DNA of 37,502 bases, from assembly GCA_900315895.1 (NCBI GenBank), contig ONAY01000016.1, positions 1 through 37,502 of the forward strand, written 5' to 3'. Positions 10,089 through 28,630 of this stretch are shown here, piece by piece. The translations under genes were made by a program, and so were the position numbers. Position 1 is the stretch's first letter; the number at the start of each line of letters is the position of its first letter. The notes below the pieces were generated by a model, which made no database searches, was not told where the DNA came from, and worked only from the letters and a program-made list of their open reading frames with translations. Source of the stretch: an uncultured Eubacteriales bacterium (GTDB taxonomy: Bacteria; Bacillota; Clostridia; Peptostreptococcales; Anaerovoracaceae).

Positions 10089-11501
10089 TTATTCTTTGAT
10101 CTCCCTTTTTATATATTCTATTATATCCCGGAAGTTCTCATCGTGCCTTATCTCGTAGTCGATCTTATCGCAGGCATATTTTACTGTGGTATGGTCTCTG
10201 CCACCGAATAAAGATCCTATTTTAGGAAGAGAACTGTCAGTCATCTCCCTTATGAGATACATCGCTACCTGTCTCGGGAAGGCTATATCGTTGGTCCTCT
10301 TCTTTGATTCAAGGTCAGCTACCTTGACACCGTAGTATTTAGCCACGATCTTTTTTATCTTTTCGGGAGTAATGAGAGTCTCCGCATCTGAAAGAAGATC
10401 CTTCAATACTTTTTTTGCGAAGGCCTTATTAGCCTTTTCGTTCAATCGTTCGGAGAAGAACTTGACCCTGGAGAAAGCTCCCTCCAGTTCTCTGATATTA
10501 TCCTTTATCTTCTCAGAAATGAGATTGATAACGTCCGCCCAATCATCATCTACTTCTATATTATACAACTCTGCATTCTTATATAAAATAGCAACTCTCG
10601 TGGCGAAGTCGGCCGGCTGAACGTCGGCCATGAGATTCCACTGGAATCTGGTGACCAGTCGCTCGTCCACTCCCTGCAGCTTGTTGGGATCCTTATCCGC
10701 AGTAAGTATTATCTGCTTGTCATTCTGGAAAAGTGCATTGAAAGTATGGAAGAATTCTTCCTGAACTCCTTCTTTTCCCTCAAGGAACTGAACATCATCG
10801 ACTATGAGAACGTCCACTTTTCTGTATTTGGATTTGAATTCTCTCATCTTTTGCTCTCTGATGGCAGTGACGAATTCGTTGGTGAAATTCTCAGATGATG
10901 TGTAAAGAATATTGGTCTTCGGCGCATGCTGAAGAATATAGATACCGATAGCCTGGATCAGATGTGTCTTGCCCAGGCCGGATCCTCCGTAAATAAAAAG
11001 AGGATTGGATGCTATTCCCGGAGATTCTGCTACTGCGTGGGCTGCGGCATAAGCGAAGCTGTTGGAAGGTCCCACGACAAAGTTCTCGAAGGTATACTTG
11101 GGATTAAGCAGCTTCTCTGCAATAAGAGTCTGCTTGCCGATGGTATCAACAGGTGATTTTTTAAGAGTTTCTTTCTTTGAAGCCGGTTTTTCTGCACCAA
11201 AAGAAGCCGCATCGTCCAATACATCCAAATCATTTGAAGGCATTCTTAATACAACGCGGTATTCTCTTCCTAAAATTTCCTTAAAAATCTCCTGAAGAAG
11301 GGGCAGATAGCGGTCGTTGATCACGCTCGCGAAAAGATCAGGGTCAAGAGATGTCTTGAAACCCATGTAGATTATCCTTAATTCCGTATTTATTTCTTCA
11401 ACGTCAAGATGATCCTGGAACCAAGTGTTGTACATTACTTCGGTCACCTGTTCCTTGATCATAGAAAGCGCGGCTTTCCAGACGTCATCGTATTTGTTCA
11501 T
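10089..11501 (-). CDS. dnaA: Chromosomal replication initiator DnaA
   Basis: AAA+ initiator that binds DnaA boxes and melts the origin, 470 residues. Domain I is at the N-terminus (NKYDDVWKAALSMIKEQV) and a variable linker follows. The AAA+ core has Walker A GGSGLGKTHL and Walker B VDVLIVDDVQFLEGK. Domain IV carries the DNA-binding signature FGGRDHTTVKYACDKI. I chose the ATG at 11501, preceded by GGGGGAT; the frame is open to a TTG at 11513. It is driven by a strong promoter whose spacer contains a DnaA box, implying autorepression. Confidence 0.98.
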   Translation of the reverse strand: MNKYDDVWKAALSMIKEQVTEVMYNTWFQDHLDVEEINTELRIIYMGFKTSLDPDLFASVINDRYLPLLQEIFKEILGREYRVVLRMPSNDLDVLDDAASFGAEKPASKKETLKKSPVDTIGKQTLIAEKLLNPKYTFENFVVGPSNSFAYAAAHAVAESPGIASNPLFIYGGSGLGKTHLIQAIGIYILQHAPKTNILYTSSENFTNEFVTAIREQKMREFKSKYRKVDVLIVDDVQFLEGKEGVQEEFFHTFNALFQNDKQIILTADKDPNKLQGVDERLVTRFQWNLMADVQPADFATRVAILYKNAELYNIEVDDDWADVINLISEKIKDNIRELEGAFSRVKFFSERLNEKANKAFAKKVLKDLLSDAETLITPEKIKKIVAKYYGVKVADLESKKRTNDIAFPRQVAMYLIREMTDSSLPKIGSLFGGRDHTTVKYACDKIDYEIRHDENFRDIIEYIKREIKE

Positions 11502-11533
11502 TTTATCCCCCAAGCAATAACTGAAGTAACTTC

Positions 11534-20612: not shown

Positions 20613-22373
20613 ATGGATCAGATCGAAGAAAAGATCCAGATCCCTTCTGGGTTTCCTCTGCCGGAGCTTACGATAGACGCTCAGGGCAAGGTGACCAGCG
20701 CAAACGTCCACATCGGGGAAGTTTTCATCTATGAAGGGATACTGGGCACAGATATTTTCGCCCTGACAGGATTCAAGGGCGCAGAGTTCAGAGAGAACGC
20801 TGAGACCGGACGGTATGTCCACCTGGAGAGAAACTATAAGTCTTTCAGGATCTATTCCTACAGGATGGATCCTGAGAAGGAAGAATGGACTCTCCTCTTC
20901 AGGGACGACACATCTCTCGAGGAACTGAAGACCAAGTACAATTCGGAGCGGCCCTGCATGGCCAAGATCCAGATCGACAACTATGACGAGCTCATCGAAG
21001 CGGTGAGGGACGCAGGAGGTTCTGACCTGAGCGCCAGGATCGACCGCATCGTCAGGGACTGGGCAGAGGACATGAAGGCTTCCGTAAGCCGTGTCAAGAA
21101 CAACAGATACAATATCTGGCTGACCCAAAAGTACATGGATGACGAACGGTTCAGAAAGTTTGACCTTCTTGACGAGGTGCGCAAGCTTGAGACCAACGCT
21201 GACTTCCCCGCCAGCCTTTCCATAGGAGTAGGCGCAGGCGGCGAAGACCTGGAGGAGACCGAAGGCTACGCCGATGCTGCACTGCAGCTGGCTTTGGGCC
21301 GTGGCGGTGACCAGGCGGTCATCAAGAGGATCAATGACATCTCATACTTCGGCGGCAAGCTTCAGACCGTAGAGAAGAGCAATAAGGGCAAGTCCCGTAT
21401 CGTCGGGCACGCCCTGACCCAGCTGATCCTTCAGGCTCCCAAGATCTTTATTATGGGCCACGTCCATTCGGACATGGACAGCTTTGGGGCCACCCTAGGA
21501 ATAGCCAGACTCTGCATGGTCAACGGCAAGAAGCCCTACATCGTCATCGAGGATCCCAATGAATCCCTTGAGACGTTGTTCAATCTCGCAAAAGATACAG
21601 AGAAGTACGGCTTCATAAACTGCGACAAGGCGACGGACCTCTGCACTGAGGACAGTCTGGTAATAGTCGTGGATACCCACAAGAAGGACATCGTTCAGTG
21701 CCCGGAACTTCTGGGAATATCCCGCAAGGTGGTAGTCATCGATCACCACAGAAAAGCGGACAAGGGAATAGAGGATCCCGAACTTATCTACATGGAATCC
21801 TACGCATCCTCCGCCTGCGAGATGGTAACTGAGATTCTGCAGTTCATGCTTCAGAAGAAGAAGCAGATGGAAAAGATCGAAGCCGAGGCCCTTATGGCAG
21901 GCATCATGGTGGACAGCAGCTTCTTCTCGGTTAGAGCGGGAGTGCGAACCTTCGAGGCGGCGGCCTGGCTTAGAAGGCAGGGGGCGGACCCCACAGAGGT
22001 AAAGAGATTCTTCCAGGAGGACTGGGAGAACGTAAAGATAAAATCCAAGGCACTGCTGGACGCGGATATTTTGAACCATGGGATCGCCATGGCCTCTCTT
22101 CCCGGAGAGAGGGGAGATGCGCAGCTGCTTTGCGCACAGCTGGCGGACAGGCTTTTGTCCCTCAAGGGAGTGAGAGCATCCTTCGCCTGCGGAAGGGACA
22201 GCGAGCAGAGGACCGTCATAAGCGCCAGGTCCCTGGGAGCGGTGAACGTCCAGGTCATCATGGAGAAGCTGGGAGGAGGCGGCCACCTGACCAATGCGGC
22301 GGCTCAGGTCTCGATCCCCGTTGAAGAGGCGCTGGAAAAAATAAGGATACTTACAGAGGAGACGATAAAATGA
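20613..22373 (+). CDS. GdpP-like cyclic-di-AMP phosphodiesterase lacking membrane segments
   Basis: DHH/DHHA1 phosphodiesterase of the GdpP type, 586 residues, expected to degrade c-di-AMP. The order is a PAS-like segment (about 1-95), a degenerate GGDEF domain without the GGDEF signature (about 105-240), then DHH and DHHA1. DHH motifs are visible: HSDMDSFGA (His285, Asp287, Asp289), VDTHKKD, DHHRKAD and [17 protein letters not shown]. The DHHA1 GGGGH motif is near the end. Standard GdpP begins with two transmembrane helices; none is present here. The start is supported by AGGTGG and lies just after non-coding DNA. It sits before rplI and dnaB, the usual gdpP-rplI-dnaB order, with an ATGA overlap with rplI. 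Confidence 0.87.
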
Positions 22374-22849: not shown

Positions 22850-24169
22850 ATGGCAGAGAGGATCCCTCCTCAAAGTAAAGAAGCCGAGAGATCGGTACTG
22901 GGCGCGGTCATGCTCAACAAGGACATGCTCTTTGAAGTGGTGACCAAACTGACCGCAGAGGATTTTTACTATCCCGAGAACAGGGAGATCTATGCGGCCA
23001 TACAGGATCTTTACAACGAAAACAAGGCGGTGGACGTGCTCACCGTTTCAGACAAGCTGAAGCAGCGAGGAACCCTGAAGATGGCCGGGGGAAGAGCCAA
23101 TGTGGCCCAAATCACCATGGATGTACCTTCCACGGTGAACGCCATGGAGTATGCCAGGATCGTGTCGGACAAGGCGGCCCTCCGCAGGATGATCCACGTC
23201 ACTGAGGACATTACGGACAAGAGCTATCAGGCCACCGTAGATGCCCAGGAAATAATGGAATACGCTGAGAGCAGCATCTTCGCCATCGCGCAAAAGAATC
23301 AGAAAAAGGATTACGAGGGCATTTCCAACGTCCTCATCACCAACATCCACGACATCGAGGAGGCGGTGAAGAACGGCGGCAAGATCACCGGCGTTCCCAC
23401 TGGCTTCAAGGAGCTGGATGAGGTGGTAAACGGGTTCCAGAATTCCAACCTAGTGGTCATCGCCGCCAGACCGGCCATGGGAAAGACCGCCTTTGCCCTG
23501 AATATCGCAGAGCAGACGGCGGTGAAGAACGGCTCCACCGTGCTGGTCTTCAGCCTTGAGATGTCCAAGGAGCAGCTGGGACAGAGAATGCTGTCCTCAG
23601 AGGCCAGGGTGGACCTCAAGAAACTCCAGAGAGGCAAGCTTGAAAGCGACGACTGGAAGAGGATAAACATAGCGCTTGATGAACTGAACAAGGCCAAGAT
23701 ATTCATAGACGATTCTCCGGAGGTATCTTTTGCGGAGATCAGGAACAAGTGCAGACGCCTCAAGGCGGAGCACGGGCTGGACATGGTGCTGGTGGACTAC
23801 ATGCAGCTCATGAAGTCCCCGGAGAGGGCGGACAACCGTCAGGCGGAGATCTCCGCCATCTCAAGGAGCCTGAAGCTTCTGGCCAGAGAGATGGACTGCC
23901 CGGTGGTGGCTTTGTCCCAGCTTTCCAGAGGCCCGGAACAGCGTCAGGACCACCATCCCAACCTGGCGGACCTGAGAGAATCCGGAGCTATCGAGCAGGA
24001 CGCAGACCTGGTCATCTTCCTTTACAGGGATGAGTACTATAACCCGGACACCACCACGAAGCCCGGGATCTGCGAAGTTGACGTGGCCAAGAACCGCCAC
24101 GGCGAGACCAAGAAGGTGGAACTCACCTGGATCGACAGATACGCCAAGTTCAGCGATAAGGCGATGTAG
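22850..24169 (+). CDS. dnaB: Replicative DNA helicase DnaB
   Basis: Hexameric 5'-3' replicative helicase (DnaC in B. subtilis naming), 439 residues. The N-terminal primase-interaction domain starts IPPQSKEAERSVLGAVM. The RecA-like core has GVPTGFKELDEVVNGF, Walker A ARPAMGKTAFALN, Walker B VLVDYMQLM and the arginine-finger region KNRHGETKKVELTW. The ribosome site is AAGGAG. No intein. The expected helicase loader is missing downstream; see the next gene. Confidence 0.97.
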   Translation: MAERIPPQSKEAERSVLGAVMLNKDMLFEVVTKLTAEDFYYPENREIYAAIQDLYNENKAVDVLTVSDKLKQRGTLKMAGGRANVAQITMDVPSTVNAMEYARIVSDKAALRRMIHVTEDITDKSYQATVDAQEIMEYAESSIFAIAQKNQKKDYEGISNVLITNIHDIEEAVKNGGKITGVPTGFKELDEVVNGFQNSNLVVIAARPAMGKTAFALNIAEQTAVKNGSTVLVFSLEMSKEQLGQRMLSSEARVDLKKLQRGKLESDDWKRINIALDELNKAKIFIDDSPEVSFAEIRNKCRRLKAEHGLDMVLVDYMQLMKSPERADNRQAEISAISRSLKLLAREMDCPVVALSQLSRGPEQRQDHHPNLADLRESGAIEQDADLVIFLYRDEYYNPDTTTKPGICEVDVAKNRHGETKKVELTWIDRYAKFSDKAM

Positions 24170-24206: not shown

Positions 24207-25451
24207 ATGAAGTTTTTAAAGGGTGGAGTGGATTATTCCAGGCTCTCCACCACCGTTGAAAACATTTTCATATCGGAATACATGCCGGGAGCTCCCGGGG
24301 AGTTCGTGAAGGTCTACCTCTACGGCCTTTCCCTGGCCGAAGCCGGACTGGAGAAGGACGAAGGCGCCATGGCTGAGGACCTGGGTATCACCACTACGGA
24401 CCTTAGAAAAGCCATGGTTTACTGGGAGGACCAGCAGCTCATAAAAGCGGGTCCGGACGGAGGCATGGTCTTCGTAAATCTGGTGGCCAGACCCGACAGA
24501 TCCGGCGCAAAAGATCCCGCCCCGGAGGCCTTGACTCCGGAACAGCCGGCGCAGGACGAAGATTCCTTCAAACGTGTGCTTGACCACGCAGAGACCATCC
24601 TGGGCAGACCCCTGAACGTCCGTGAGATGCAGGAGATCGAAGGCTGGATCGAGGAGATCGGCGTAAGCGAAGACATGATCAAGAAGGCCTTTGACTACTG
24701 CCAGGAAGGCGGGAAGACCGGCATCAGCTATATTTCCAAGGTGGTGCTGGGCTGGGCCAAAGAGGGACTGGAGACAGTTCAGGATGTTGACAACTATCTG
24801 GAACAGAGATCCGAGCGCCAGGGCATATACAGGCGCATCCTGAATTCCCTGGGTCTGAGGAGGAATATCACCGAAGCCGAAAAGACCATGATCGACGGCT
24901 GGCTGGACACCTACGGCTTCACCGTGGAGAAGATCCTGGATGCCTGCGAAAAGGCAGGCTTCACTCAGAGCCCAAGCATACGCTACGTCAACAAGGTCCT
25001 GGAAAACTGGAAGAAGGAAGCGGAGGACATGGGTCGGGATATCAATTCCAAGATCACCGTTACCCAGGGAACTCTTAACAAGTATTATGACTATCTGAGA
25101 GAAAAAGCCGAAAAAGAAGCGGACAACAGACGGGAAGAGATCTATAAAAAACTACCGGAAATTCGCGATATCGACATAAATCTCCAGTCATTATCGAGTA
25201 AAATATCAAGGGGTCTTCTCCGTGGAGTATCAGGAGAAGAGACCGCAAAGATAAGAAAAGAGATCTCAGATCTCGAGAAGCAGAGGGCGATCCTCCTTAC
25301 GGAGAGCAACTACCCTCTGGACTATACAGATATAAAGCATCTTTGTGACAAGTGCAGCGACACCGGTTTCGACGAAAACGGAAGACGCTGCTCCTGCCAG
25401 AAGATCAGAATGGGAGAAGCAGAATTATGGCAAAATGGCAGACTGCAGTAA
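24207..25451 (+). CDS. DnaD-domain protein fused to a DnaC-type N-terminal zinc domain, no AAA+
   Basis: 414-residue replication protein. Residues 1-95 form a winged-helix-like N-terminus. Two DnaD C-terminal-type domains follow at about 123-190 and 205-270 (LNVREMQEIEGWI; ITEAEKTMIDGWL). From about 290 the sequence instead resembles the N-terminal part of the DnaC/DnaI helicase loader: a helical segment (REEIYKKLPEIRDIDINLQS; DLEKQRAILLTES), then YPLDY and a four-cysteine zinc site (Cys380, 383, 395, 397). In related Clostridia, dnaD is followed by a separate dnaC with this N-terminus joined to an AAA+ ATPase. Here the protein stops 17 residues after the last cysteine and its last 25 bases overlap a peptidase gene. 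It looks like a deletion-derived fusion, possibly still a helicase-loading adaptor. Confidence 0.8.
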   Translation: MKFLKGGVDYSRLSTTVENIFISEYMPGAPGEFVKVYLYGLSLAEAGLEKDEGAMAEDLGITTTDLRKAMVYWEDQQLIKAGPDGGMVFVNLVARPDRSGAKDPAPEALTPEQPAQDEDSFKRVLDHAETILGRPLNVREMQEIEGWIEEIGVSEDMIKKAFDYCQEGGKTGISYISKVVLGWAKEGLETVQDVDNYLEQRSERQGIYRRILNSLGLRRNITEAEKTMIDGWLDTYGFTVEKILDACEKAGFTQSPSIRYVNKVLENWKKEAEDMGRDINSKITVTQGTLNKYYDYLREKAEKEADNRREEIYKKLPEIRDIDINLQSLSSKISRGLLRGVSGEETAKIRKEISDLEKQRAILLTESNYPLDYTDIKHLCDKCSDTGFDENGRRCSCQKIRMGEAELWQNGRLQ

Positions 25452-27034
25452 AAGCAAGTGCCGTTCTGAAAAACATCAGAAGTAAAATAAGCACCAAGGT
25501 AGAGGCGAAAAAGAAGCCTAAAAAGAAAAGTTCGATCACCTGGGGAGCGATCTTCAGGCGCATAAATGAGATAGTAATGGATCACGCCGGAGATCTGGTA
25601 ACGGGAGCAGATAAGACCCTGGACTTCGCAGCGTGGAGCGTGGAAAGGACCTCGGTCCTGATCCTGAGAAGGATACATAAGTTCAGGGAAGGCCTGAATG
25701 AACATGCAGCTCTTCTTAAGAAGGTGGTGCTGTTCGCCGTGGCAGCTTCAGTAGTGATCATCGGCGTTTTCGTAAGCGCCATAGACTATTCATACTCCTA
25801 CAATGGCAGGACCCTGGGCATAGTAAAGGAGCAGAACGATGTTCTGGAAGTGCTGGACCTGGTGTCCGACGGACTTTCCAAGGAATATGGCTCCGTGATA
25901 TCTATAGATCCCAATAAGGATATAACCTTCTCTCCTGTGATCTCCACCGGAATGGAGATAGATACCCCGGATGCAGTTCTCCAGAAGTTCACCTATATGG
26001 GTGATATAGACACCACAGCCTATGCCATCATGATCGATGGCGTTCAGGTCACTACAGTCCAGTCAGAAGATATGGCCAACAAGGTCATTGACTCAATAAT
26101 AGACAGCCACATCCTGAAAGACCGTTCAAGCTACGAGGTAGTAGAGATCAATGCGGATGTGGACATCCAGGAAAAGACCGTTAAGCTTTCAGCTGTTCAG
26201 AGCAAGGAGGACGCCATCGCTCTGATCGAAGGAGGAATTTCCAAGACCTACGTTTACACCGTCAAGGAAGGAGATACTCTGGAGACCGTCGCAAAAGAAA
26301 TGGGTACAACGGTGGATGATCTGGTGAGACAGAACCAGATCACCAAGGGCGAGGGAGCCCTCAAGGAGGGTCTGATCCTGAGAAATACCGTCAGCAACAA
26401 GACCATCTCAGTAAAGACTGTGGGGGTTGAAACTTTTGCGGAAGTAGTGCCTTACAAGACCATTTACCAGGAGTCCGACAAGTATTATGAGGGCGACGAG
26501 ATCGTCTCCGTTGCAGGACAGGATGGCAAGAACAAGGTCAAGGCAAGGCTTACAAGAATAGATGGGGAGATCACTGACAGAGAGGATCTGGAAGTGGAAG
26601 AGATCATCCCCGTTGTGGACAGAGTAGTTATAAAGGGAACTGCCGAGAGACCGCCTACAGTGGGCTGCGGCAAGTTCATCAGACCTTGTACCCTTCCCAT
26701 CTACTATCACTTCGGATGGCGCTGGGGAAGAATGCATGAAGGAATCGACATGTCAGGAGCCTCCGGCACGCCCATAATAGCTGCCGACGGCGGAACGGTC
26801 ATAACTGCAGGCTGGTATCAGGGATATGGATTGGCGGTCATCATCGACCACCAGAACGGTTACAAGACACTTTATGGACATTGCTCGACCCTGGCCGTCT
26901 CCGTGGGAGACAAGGTATATCAGGGCCAGCACATCGCTAATGTGGGATCCACCGGAAACTCTACCGGACCTCATCTCCATTTTGAGATATGGATCAACGG
27001 CACCAAGGTGGACCCGGAACCCTACATTTCATAA
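25427..27034 (+). CDS. Membrane-anchored LysM/G5/M23 peptidase (copy 1)
   Basis: LytM-type cell-wall metallopeptidase, 535 residues. A basic cytoplasmic N-terminus contains SSITWGAIFRRINEIVMDH, followed by one membrane helix at about 100-119. Then an extracytoplasmic region, a LysM domain (about 272-318, YTVKEGDTLETVAKEMG), a G5 domain (about 325-400) and the C-terminal M23 domain. Zinc ligands are His437, Asp441 and His518; catalytic His485 (YGH) and His516 (HLH). All are present, so it should be active on peptidoglycan cross-links. The ATG at 25427 is preceded by GGGAGAAG. It overlaps the upstream gene by 25 bases and is a tandem paralogue of the next gene. Confidence 0.9.
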   Translation: MAKWQTAVKASAVLKNIRSKISTKVEAKKKPKKKSSITWGAIFRRINEIVMDHAGDLVTGADKTLDFAAWSVERTSVLILRRIHKFREGLNEHAALLKKVVLFAVAASVVIIGVFVSAIDYSYSYNGRTLGIVKEQNDVLEVLDLVSDGLSKEYGSVISIDPNKDITFSPVISTGMEIDTPDAVLQKFTYMGDIDTTAYAIMIDGVQVTTVQSEDMANKVIDSIIDSHILKDRSSYEVVEINADVDIQEKTVKLSAVQSKEDAIALIEGGISKTYVYTVKEGDTLETVAKEMGTTVDDLVRQNQITKGEGALKEGLILRNTVSNKTISVKTVGVETFAEVVPYKTIYQESDKYYEGDEIVSVAGQDGKNKVKARLTRIDGEITDREDLEVEEIIPVVDRVVIKGTAERPPTVGCGKFIRPCTLPIYYHFGWRWGRMHEGIDMSGASGTPIIAADGGTVITAGWYQGYGLAVIIDHQNGYKTLYGHCSTLAVSVGDKVYQGQHIANVGSTGNSTGPHLHFEIWINGTKVDPEPYIS

Positions 27035-27040
27035 GGAACA

Positions 27041-28630
27041 ATGTCAAAAGCAGACCCCCAAAACGATATAAAGAAGGTCAGGGAAAAGAAGACCCGGCAG
27101 AAGAAGTCCCGGAAGAAGAGCTCCATCACATGGGGAGCGATCTTCCGCAGGATCAATGAGATCGTTATGGATCATGTGGCCAACGTGGTCACCGGGATCG
27201 ATAAGGTCCTGGATCTGGCAGCCTGGAGCTTCGAGAGGACCTCTGTCCTGACTCTAAGAAGGATTCATCGGTTCAGAGAAAGAATGACCGAACATTCAGG
27301 GATCCTGAAGAGGATTTTCCTTTTCGGTGTGGCAGGAGTGGTGATCATCATCAGCGTCTTCATGGGAGCCATCGATTACACCTATTCTTACCACGGCCGG
27401 GCGCTGGGCATAGTCAAGGAGCAGAGCGACGTCCTGGATGTGCTGGATCTTGTGTCAGACGGGCTGAGCAAGGAGTACGGATCCACGGTCTCCATAGACC
27501 CGGAGAAGGATATAACCTTCACTCCCGTGATCTCTGCAGGCAAGGAGATAGACAAGCCCGATACTGTCCTTCAGAAGTTCACCTACATGGGAGATATACC
27601 CACCATGGCCTACGTTATCATGATCGATAACGTGCAGGCTGCCACCGTCCAATCTGAGGACGCAGGAAACCGTGTAATGGATGCCATCATAGACAGGTAT
27701 ATCACCGGAAGCCGCGAGGACTATGAACTGGTGGAATTCAGCGAGCCCGTTGAGATCGTGGAGAGATCCGTGAAGCTTTCCAGCATCCAGAGTGAACGAG
27801 AAGCGCTGGCTGTAATAGACAAGGGCATCAGCAAAACATACACCTACACCGCCCGTCAGGGGGACACCCTGGAGAGCGCAGCCAAGGCCCTGGGGATCAC
27901 CGTGGAGGACCTGGTCAGTCAGAACCAGATAACCAAGGGAACACAGGAGCTTACAGAGGGACAGATCCTTAAGAACACAGAGACCAGCAAGACCCTTTCT
28001 GTAAAGACGGTTGGCATCGAGACCTTCTCCGAGACTGTGCCTTACGAGACGAAATACGAAGAGTCATCCAAGTATTTTGAGGGAGACGAGATTGTCTCTG
28101 TAGCCGGTCAGGAAGGGAAGAATGCAGTAACCGCCAGAATAACCAGAATAGATGGTCAGCAGGTGGAGAGAGAAGACCTTGAGGTAAAGGTCATAACTCC
28201 CGTAGTGGACAGAGTGATCATCAAGGGCACCTCTCCCAGACCACCTACAGTTGGTTCCGGCCGCTTCATCCGCCCTGTGCCCTATTCCATCCATGATGGA
28301 TTCGGAACGCGCTGGGGAAGGATGCATGAAGGAGTGGACATGTTCGACGGCAACTGCTACGGAGCACCCATCGTCGCAGCCGACGGAGGAACAGTGGTGG
28401 TGGCAGGCTGGTACCAGGGATACGGATTGGCCGTGATCATCGATCACCAGAACGGCTTCAAGACCCTGTACGGACACGCCTCCGCACTGATGGTATCAGT
28501 GGGAGACCAGGTGTACCAGGGTCAGCACATCGCAAATATCGGTAACACCGGCAGGTCCTACGGAGCGCACCTGCACTTCGAGATCTGGTATAACGGGACC
28601 AAGGTAAATCCCGCACCGTACATATCATAA
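27041..28630 (+). CDS. Membrane-anchored LysM/G5/M23 peptidase (copy 2)
   Basis: 529 residues, with the same architecture and high similarity throughout to the preceding gene: SSITWGAIFRRINEIVMDH near the N-terminus, one membrane helix, LysM (YTARQGDTLESAAKALG), G5, and M23 with His429, Asp433, YGH and HLHFE. The N-terminus differs and is Lys/Arg-rich. It begins 6 bp after copy 1. In place of the GASGTP of copy 1 it has DGNCYGAP in the active-site rim, hinting at a different specificity (inference). G5-domain wall proteins commonly precede rnmV-rsmA in Firmicutes (yabE in B. subtilis). Confidence 0.9.
   Translation: MSKADPQNDIKKVREKKTRQKKSRKKSSITWGAIFRRINEIVMDHVANVVTGIDKVLDLAAWSFERTSVLTLRRIHRFRERMTEHSGILKRIFLFGVAGVVIIISVFMGAIDYTYSYHGRALGIVKEQSDVLDVLDLVSDGLSKEYGSTVSIDPEKDITFTPVISAGKEIDKPDTVLQKFTYMGDIPTMAYVIMIDNVQAATVQSEDAGNRVMDAIIDRYITGSREDYELVEFSEPVEIVERSVKLSSIQSEREALAVIDKGISKTYTYTARQGDTLESAAKALGITVEDLVSQNQITKGTQELTEGQILKNTETSKTLSVKTVGIETFSETVPYETKYEESSKYFEGDEIVSVAGQEGKNAVTARITRIDGQQVEREDLEVKVITPVVDRVIIKGTSPRPPTVGSGRFIRPVPYSIHDGFGTRWGRMHEGVDMFDGNCYGAPIVAADGGTVVVAGWYQGYGLAVIIDHQNGFKTLYGHASALMVSVGDQVYQGQHIANIGNTGRSYGAHLHFEIWYNGTKVNPAPYIS

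Follow-up and report, generated by a model that had tools for sequence, protein, structure and literature searches.

Lambda P loads the DnaB helicase without AAA+ activity. It has been described as unrelated to DnaC by sequence and structure (PMC6391071). For E. coli, the isolated HBD of DnaC, a laboratory construct, is reported to load DnaB without AAA+ activity at about half the wild-type level and to stimulate unwinding nearly as well as full-length DnaC, and the AAA+ domain is reported to increase loading efficiency (PMC8213410). DciA is a chromosomal loader that lacks an AAA+ domain, and species with neither gene are listed in Supplementary Data 1 of the report concerned (PMC5109545). In the B. 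subtilis complex, the DnaI NTD is reported to have the larger contact with the helicase, 1,197 versus 548 A2 out of a total of 1,745 A2 (PMC3791466), and the tail of B. subtilis DnaB is reported to bind the AAA+ domain of DnaI (PMC13326638). Oligomerisation and recruitment by DnaA or PriA are reported for DnaD and BsDnaB (PMC4909229, PMC13326638). In C. difficile, CD3653 has the architecture DDBH1-DDBH2-DDBH2, loaders with Walker mutations still seem to load and/or activate the helicase and to release it, and the wild-type loader was found to be inhibitory to the helicase in vitro (PMC5204125). CD3654 is taken here to be an AAA+ loader of the PRK06835 type. Arguments about the role of the bacterial helicase-loader ATPase have so far drawn on mutants and on domains studied in isolation.

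The window analysed here is a whole stretch of 37,502 nucleotides from an uncultured Eubacteriales bacterium (contig ONAY01000016.1), whose family we take to be Anaerovoracaceae. As seen in Table 1, the gene order at the locus is gdpP-rplI-dnaB, followed by a gene in which DnaD and the front part of DnaC are joined, and then by an M23 peptidase gene. The frame had been predicted to end without an AAA+ domain and to give way to a peptidase gene, and this is what is found: the peptidase ATG at 25427 overlaps the end of the fusion by 25 nt.

Table 1. Features of the window that bear on the fused gene, in order of position.
Feature	Position	Strand	Basis
dnaA, the sole gene in this assembly matched by the DnaC AAA+ profile	10089..11513	-	named by Pfam
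gdpP-type DHH phosphodiesterase	20613..22373	+	
rplI, ribosomal protein L9	22370..22813	+	
dnaB replicative helicase, putative client of the fusion	22850..24169	+	DnaB_C, E 1.7e-109 (Pfam)
Fused DnaD / DnaC-N-terminal-domain protein, 414 aa, ATG start	24207..25451	+	ORF, Pfam, NCBIfam
Putative DnaD-type N-terminal domain (DDBH1), aa 1-95	24207..24491	+	position and weak Foldseek match
First DnaB_2 (DDBH2) domain, aa 126-197, YxxxVxxxW at 175/179/183	24582..24797	+	Pfam, Foldseek
Second DnaB_2 (DDBH2) domain, about aa 205-272, YxxxVxxxW at 260/264/268	24819..25022	+	Pfam, approximate limits
Linker, aa 273-288, poorly conserved (identity 0.18)	25023..25070	+	alignment A4
Three-helix part of the loader N-terminal domain, aa 289-372	25071..25322	+	NCBIfam, profile-profile comparison, model helices
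Four-cysteine site of zinc-ribbon type, C380 C383 C395 C397, aa 373-400	25323..25406	+	invariant in alignment A1
M23 peptidase with G5 and LysM domains	25427..27034	+	Pfam

The first part of the open reading frame is DnaD-like, as the original prediction had it. Two DnaB_2 stretches were found by Pfam (E 1.4e-30, the best being aa 126-197) and a DnaD domain by NCBIfam, and the DnaD half matches split clostridial DnaD by tblastn. For aa 1-95, Pfam gave no match of its own and Foldseek a weak one to 2v79_B (E 0.46, prob 0.99); the first DnaB_2 domain was matched to 2zc2_A (E 0.051, rmsd 1.4 across 72 columns). Like Firmicute DnaD and B. subtilis DnaB, the fusion has an N-terminal domain followed by two DnaB_2 domains, and it carries YxxxI/VxxxW motifs.

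The part that follows belongs to the clostridial DnaC type. According to NCBIfam, aa 288-400 correspond to positions 7-120 of the 330 of NF005304/PRK06835 (E 2e-25, 89.6 bits), so that the fusion stays below the whole-protein cut-off of 215 bits. When the alignment of fused proteins (A4) was compared by profile with 10 split DnaC proteins from the order (A3, with the AAA+ start set at residue 126), DnaC residues 9-125 of 326 were covered at E 2.4e-31. The fusion and clostridial DnaC thus share a homologous N-terminal helical domain and cysteine ribbon, whereas the fusion lacks the AAA+ domain of DnaC (roughly residues 126 to 326) and has the N-terminal domain in covalent linkage with DnaD. No AAA+ family was among the Pfam matches of the 414-aa protein. 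Judged by its defining domain as recognised in the sequence, the fusion falls outside the AAA+ loader family. All 49 members of A4 matched both DnaD_dom and PRK06835, a result that is partly built in because every row except that of the window was picked by its cysteine pattern. The name DnaI_N was rejected for the C-terminal domain, as no DnaI-type family was among its Pfam matches, and any one Pfam family was matched in at most 1 of the 16 members searched. The earlier assignment of aa ~290-400 to the N-terminus of DnaC/DnaI loaders can therefore be retained for the PRK06835 type and was not borne out for DnaI: no likeness to the DnaI N-terminal zinc domain was found by Pfam or among the best 50 of 89 Foldseek matches. 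After the ribbon, many fused proteins end in the pattern R..EA..W (25407-25448 in the window), which replaces the DnaC sequence leading into the AAA+ domain.

In the structure predicted for the full fusion (mean pLDDT 90.3, pTM 0.55), a DnaD-like half with a low-confidence stretch at 97-115 is followed by a linker, by helices at 287-315, 317-339 and 343-366, by the cysteine ribbon and by a last helix at 398-409. The pTM value makes the mutual placing of the two halves uncertain. With the full model, a single Foldseek match lay within E<=0.001, and it was to a DnaD model. The loader domain alone (25065-25448) was predicted at pLDDT 94.8; against solved structures none of its matches reached E<=0.001, and the best 50 of 89 included no loader. 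DnaI and E. coli DnaC were reached solely by way of their AAA+ parts or the stretch immediately ahead, and by the fused profile not at all. As neither Foldseek nor Pfam links this domain to solved loaders, its putative function is transferred from its position in DnaC proteins.

The loader half is conserved. The C-x2-C...C-x-C site foreseen at 380-397 was borne out, the four cysteines C380, C383, C395 and C397 being invariant in the 27 rows of A1, which were not selected for cysteines; in A4 their invariance follows from the selection of rows. They are also present in each of the 69 named fused loci whose sequence extends this far (63 by pattern, 6 by eye). In A4 the loader helices have a mean pairwise identity of 0.34 and the ribbon one of 0.51; the linkers are at 0.18, aa 1-95 at 0.48, and the first and second DnaB_2 domains at 0.35 and 0.50. 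The corresponding values in the narrower set of 10 split DnaC proteins are 0.49 for the helices and 0.64 for the ribbon. Since the cysteines are kept and the identity lies well above that of the linkers, the loader half of the fusion is very unlikely to be a remnant. In the DnaD half, Y and W of the first YxxxVxxxW motif occur in 49/49 rows of A4; in the second motif, Y occurs in 49/49 and W268 in 40/49. The YxxxI/VxxxW motif is reported to bind DNA in DnaD (PMC4909229).

At the junction the fusion differs from split DnaD, the loader domain standing in the place of the DnaD tail. A tail pattern, F[HN]NF or alike, which was chosen after the tails had been viewed, was present in 18 of 23 split proteins and at the junction of 0/63 fused ones. 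The five split proteins lacking it were L124, L147, L154, L160 and L161, with the near variants FHNY in L160 and FQNY in L124. A search of the PDB with split DnaD gave matches that did not cover the tail. If the clostridial tail binds as the B. subtilis DnaB tail does, the dock for the AAA+ domain may have been lost together with the motor and a covalent link taken its place. In B. subtilis the DDBH protein DnaB works with the loader DnaI, as proposed for the fusion, and the partners meet through a tail-to-AAA+ contact; the fusion, in contrast, is covalently linked to the loader N-terminal domain, which would make an AAA+ dock unneeded. This is a weak lead, because the pattern was chosen post hoc, some split proteins do not have it, and the DnaD tail of Bacilli has other reported partners, namely ssDNA, PriA or DnaB (PMC4909229, PMC3814617). 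Tails of the type F[HN]NF, FHLS or alike were seen in the split DnaDs L146, L148-L153, L155, L156, L112, L113, L116 and L118-L123, where they continue with Y and a stretch often containing LE.

Comparison with relatives took the original prediction beyond a single sequence. The fusion model was matched in 92/92 genomes of the window's family (91 at >=95% completeness and the window's own, at 86.9%), and in 90 of these a single match spanned both halves; in G524 the fusion is broken into three frames, and in G071 it is cut by the contig end before the loader part. A separate draw from the family gave the fusion in 36/37 genomes, the one genome with no match (G031) being 80% complete and in about 300 contigs. 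A second family, f9, has the fusion in 3/3 genomes. Full-length DnaC, scored as NF005304 above cut-off, was found in 0/60 genomes of the window's family, 0/3 of f9 and 35/36 of the other families of the order, where the one miss, G096, is 80% complete. In these other families dnaC is a separate gene adjoining dnaD in 13/13 regions, so that the two-gene arrangement with an AAA+ loader had been rightly ascribed to relatives. In family f12 the slot reads M23-[dnaD-dnaC]-purA-dnaB-rplI-gdpP and in f9 M23-[fusion]-purA-dnaB-rplI-gdpP; between these two families, dnaD-dnaC and the fusion therefore occupy the same position.

Among 80 named loci, 70 are fused and 10 have two genes. The fused ones comprise 63 recognised by cysteine pattern, six with differently spaced or spelled cysteines (L062, L063, L069, L089, L110, L111) and L109, which runs off its contig. 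They include Mogibacterium pumilum (chromosome), M. timidum, Emergencia, Anaerovorax, Eubacterium pyruvativorans and Clostridium aminobutyricum; identical match coordinates place M. timidum, E. pyruvativorans and Anaerovorax sp. IOR16 within the window's family, and some fused loci are filed under Clostridiales Family XIII. By tblastn, a DnaC AAA+ domain lies downstream in 10/10 split and 0/70 fused loci, the latter count taking in several loci, L103 and L109 among them, with little or no sequence beyond the gene. A dnaB match was obtained in 69/80 loci, all 69 being fused. In a DnaB-helicase tree of 30 fused and 9 split rows, the two states are separated by one change (SH-aLRT 100), and f9 stands beside the window's family; this tree is independent of the fused gene, was made by a quick method with no bootstrap, does not include f6, f7 and f10, and has L147 flagged as a long branch. 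As two-gene loci occur outside the order, the fusion is the derived state. The architecture is real and conserved, and it probably evolved once. No such DnaD-DnaC fusion was met among the open-access matches listed in a literature search, supplements being outside its scope.

Across the class, the loader domain was matched in at least 340 of 391 genomes. Twenty of the 51 genomes with no listed match were retested with NF005304, in a run of 22 genomes that also took in two family genomes. Three of the 20 scored over the cut-off, five gave nothing at E<=1e-15 (G126, G203, G245, G252, G268), two gave only an ORF of DnaA size (G171, G241), and the remainder gave matches below the cut-off. Five genomes of Clostridia that are 94-99% complete (G126, G203, G245, G252, G496) have no DnaC-type loader at the thresholds used, and further losses or divergent loaders are possible there. 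A second loss of the AAA+ domain, suspected in family f67 from short ORFs, was rejected: NF005304 was above cut-off in 26/30 genomes, and the remaining part of the gene adjoins the short ORFs of G222, G490, G502 and G505. Within f67, DnaC was not found in G245 and G496.

From its domains and distribution, the fusion is likely to serve as the family's resident loader of the chromosomal helicase, derived from one ancestral joining of dnaD to the front of a neighbouring dnaC with loss of the DnaC AAA+ domain. It probably works like a loader, and is best read as using no dedicated AAA+ motor. The DnaD half would provide oligomerisation, ssDNA binding and recruitment by DnaA or PriA, and PriA was present in 9/9 genomes. 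The tethered DnaC N-terminal domain would then bind the C-terminal ring of DnaB, and the ring would be opened or stabilised, or assembled on ssDNA, without use of ATP by the loader. Release would also proceed without ATP hydrolysis by the loader, through ssDNA binding, the ATPase of DnaB itself or primase. The ATP-driven locking and release performed by a loader AAA+ domain would thus be dispensed with.

Other AAA+ proteins that might contribute were sought with the DnaC AAA+ profile in 48 genomes, 46 with the fusion and 2 split controls. The controls scored 368.4 and 299.5 bits. DnaC-like matches at 69.5-83.7 bits were obtained in 8/46 fused genomes, all others reaching at most 46.2 bits. In 29/46 the only matches were ORFs of 445-557 aa, which are taken for DnaA (that of the window alone being confirmed by Pfam), 4/46 had none, and 5/46 had additional matches in ORFs of about IstB size (214-265 aa). 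The DnaA-size matches, and the genomes with none, would suit a scheme in which DnaB is handed over by DnaA, itself an AAA+ protein, or loads itself, the fusion acting as a recruiter or brake and not as a ring opener. We regard this scheme as unlikely. The C. difficile loader is reported to be partly a lock, with primase activating the helicase (PMC5204125), which is in keeping with a brake, but the loader domain and its cysteines are retained across the family, as expected if DnaB is still contacted. The scheme overlaps with the loader reading, and sequence cannot cleanly separate the two.

It is quite improbable that a separate DnaC-like or diverged AAA+ protein acts in trans and leaves the fusion as an adaptor half only. 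The original prediction had allowed for a motor elsewhere; in the window's own assembly (86.9% complete) the DnaC AAA+ profile matched only DnaA, PF01695 gave two weak matches below cut-off (30 and 23 profile positions, contigs C19 and C46), and no DciA was found. Within the family, DnaC-type AAA+ genes do occur at E<=1e-13 in 18/92 genomes (23 in all, with ORFs of 157-315 aa), but 74/92 have none at this limit, which hides matches of IstB size. Among seven one-contig genomes, six are without such a gene (G516, G523, G524, G525, G483, G549; 34 of 49 candidates were scored in G525), and G522 has one. The neighbours of 6 of the 23 genes were inspected: five (L129, L162, L164, L165, L166) share a similar upstream gene, which in L129, the one examined by Pfam, is RepA_N, and L163 has a different context. 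A repeated block in which a RepA-like initiator gene precedes a DnaC-like AAA+ gene is present in scattered genomes of the family. These AAA+ genes look as if they were borne by mobile elements, and since 74/92 genomes lack them as well, they make poor candidates for a loader of the family. Nor was a DnaC-type AAA+ domain found beside the fusion within the available flanks of the 70 fused loci. DciA (PF05258) was found in 0/24 genomes (21 fused, 3 split), with 7/14 controls positive. With the fusion in 92/92 genomes, no DnaC-type AAA+ gene at E<=1e-13 in 74/92, and full DnaC mostly kept by the other families of the order, a motor encoded at another locus is unlikely to hold as a general explanation. 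Finally, it is barely conceivable that the fusion is a sequencing, frameshift or assembly error, or its loader part a decaying remnant. Broken, cut or unmatched cases exist in G524, G071 and G031, but one-frame fused ORFs recur across many genera with differing downstream genes, which makes the assembly error raised earlier very unlikely as the cause of the missing AAA+ part, the cysteines are retained, and the identity of the loader helices equals nearly that of the first DnaB_2 domain and exceeds that of the linkers.

We lean towards the view that the window's family and the neighbouring f9 initiate chromosome replication without any dedicated AAA+ helicase loader, after losing the ATPase and joining the helicase-binding half to an origin-recruitment protein. 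The fusion suggests that DNA replication starts in this family with a simpler loader than that of textbook models. If true, it would add another, independently evolved type to the chromosomal loaders free of AAA+, like DciA in its lack of the AAA+ domain and different from it in the domain used, and would be natural evidence that the DnaC-type loader ATPase is dispensable. The activity of the E. coli DnaC HBD is that of a laboratory construct, whereas the fusion would be a natural version fixed in a family. What is new here is probably a variant of the DnaC-type loader that has no AAA+ domain and whose remainder is joined to DnaD. Evolution appears to have deleted the ATPase family-wide and to have joined the remaining half to a recruiter; the ATPase question therefore becomes testable with purified proteins. 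Loader inventories that count AAA+ domains would score these genomes as loader-free.

Several minor observations concern the neighbouring genes. In the helicase tree, a very long branch (1.25) is shared by the dnaB products of the fused loci L115 and L125, which are also longer, with 531 and 489 aa as called. Genes downstream of the fusion vary from genus to genus; within the window's own genus, a MAKWQT start overlapping the fusion stop recurs in the loci L005, L007, L008 and L010. Two adjacent, similar M23 peptidases with G5 domains (25427-27034 and 27041-28630, both on the + strand) follow the fusion in the window, and this tandem is probably a local duplication.
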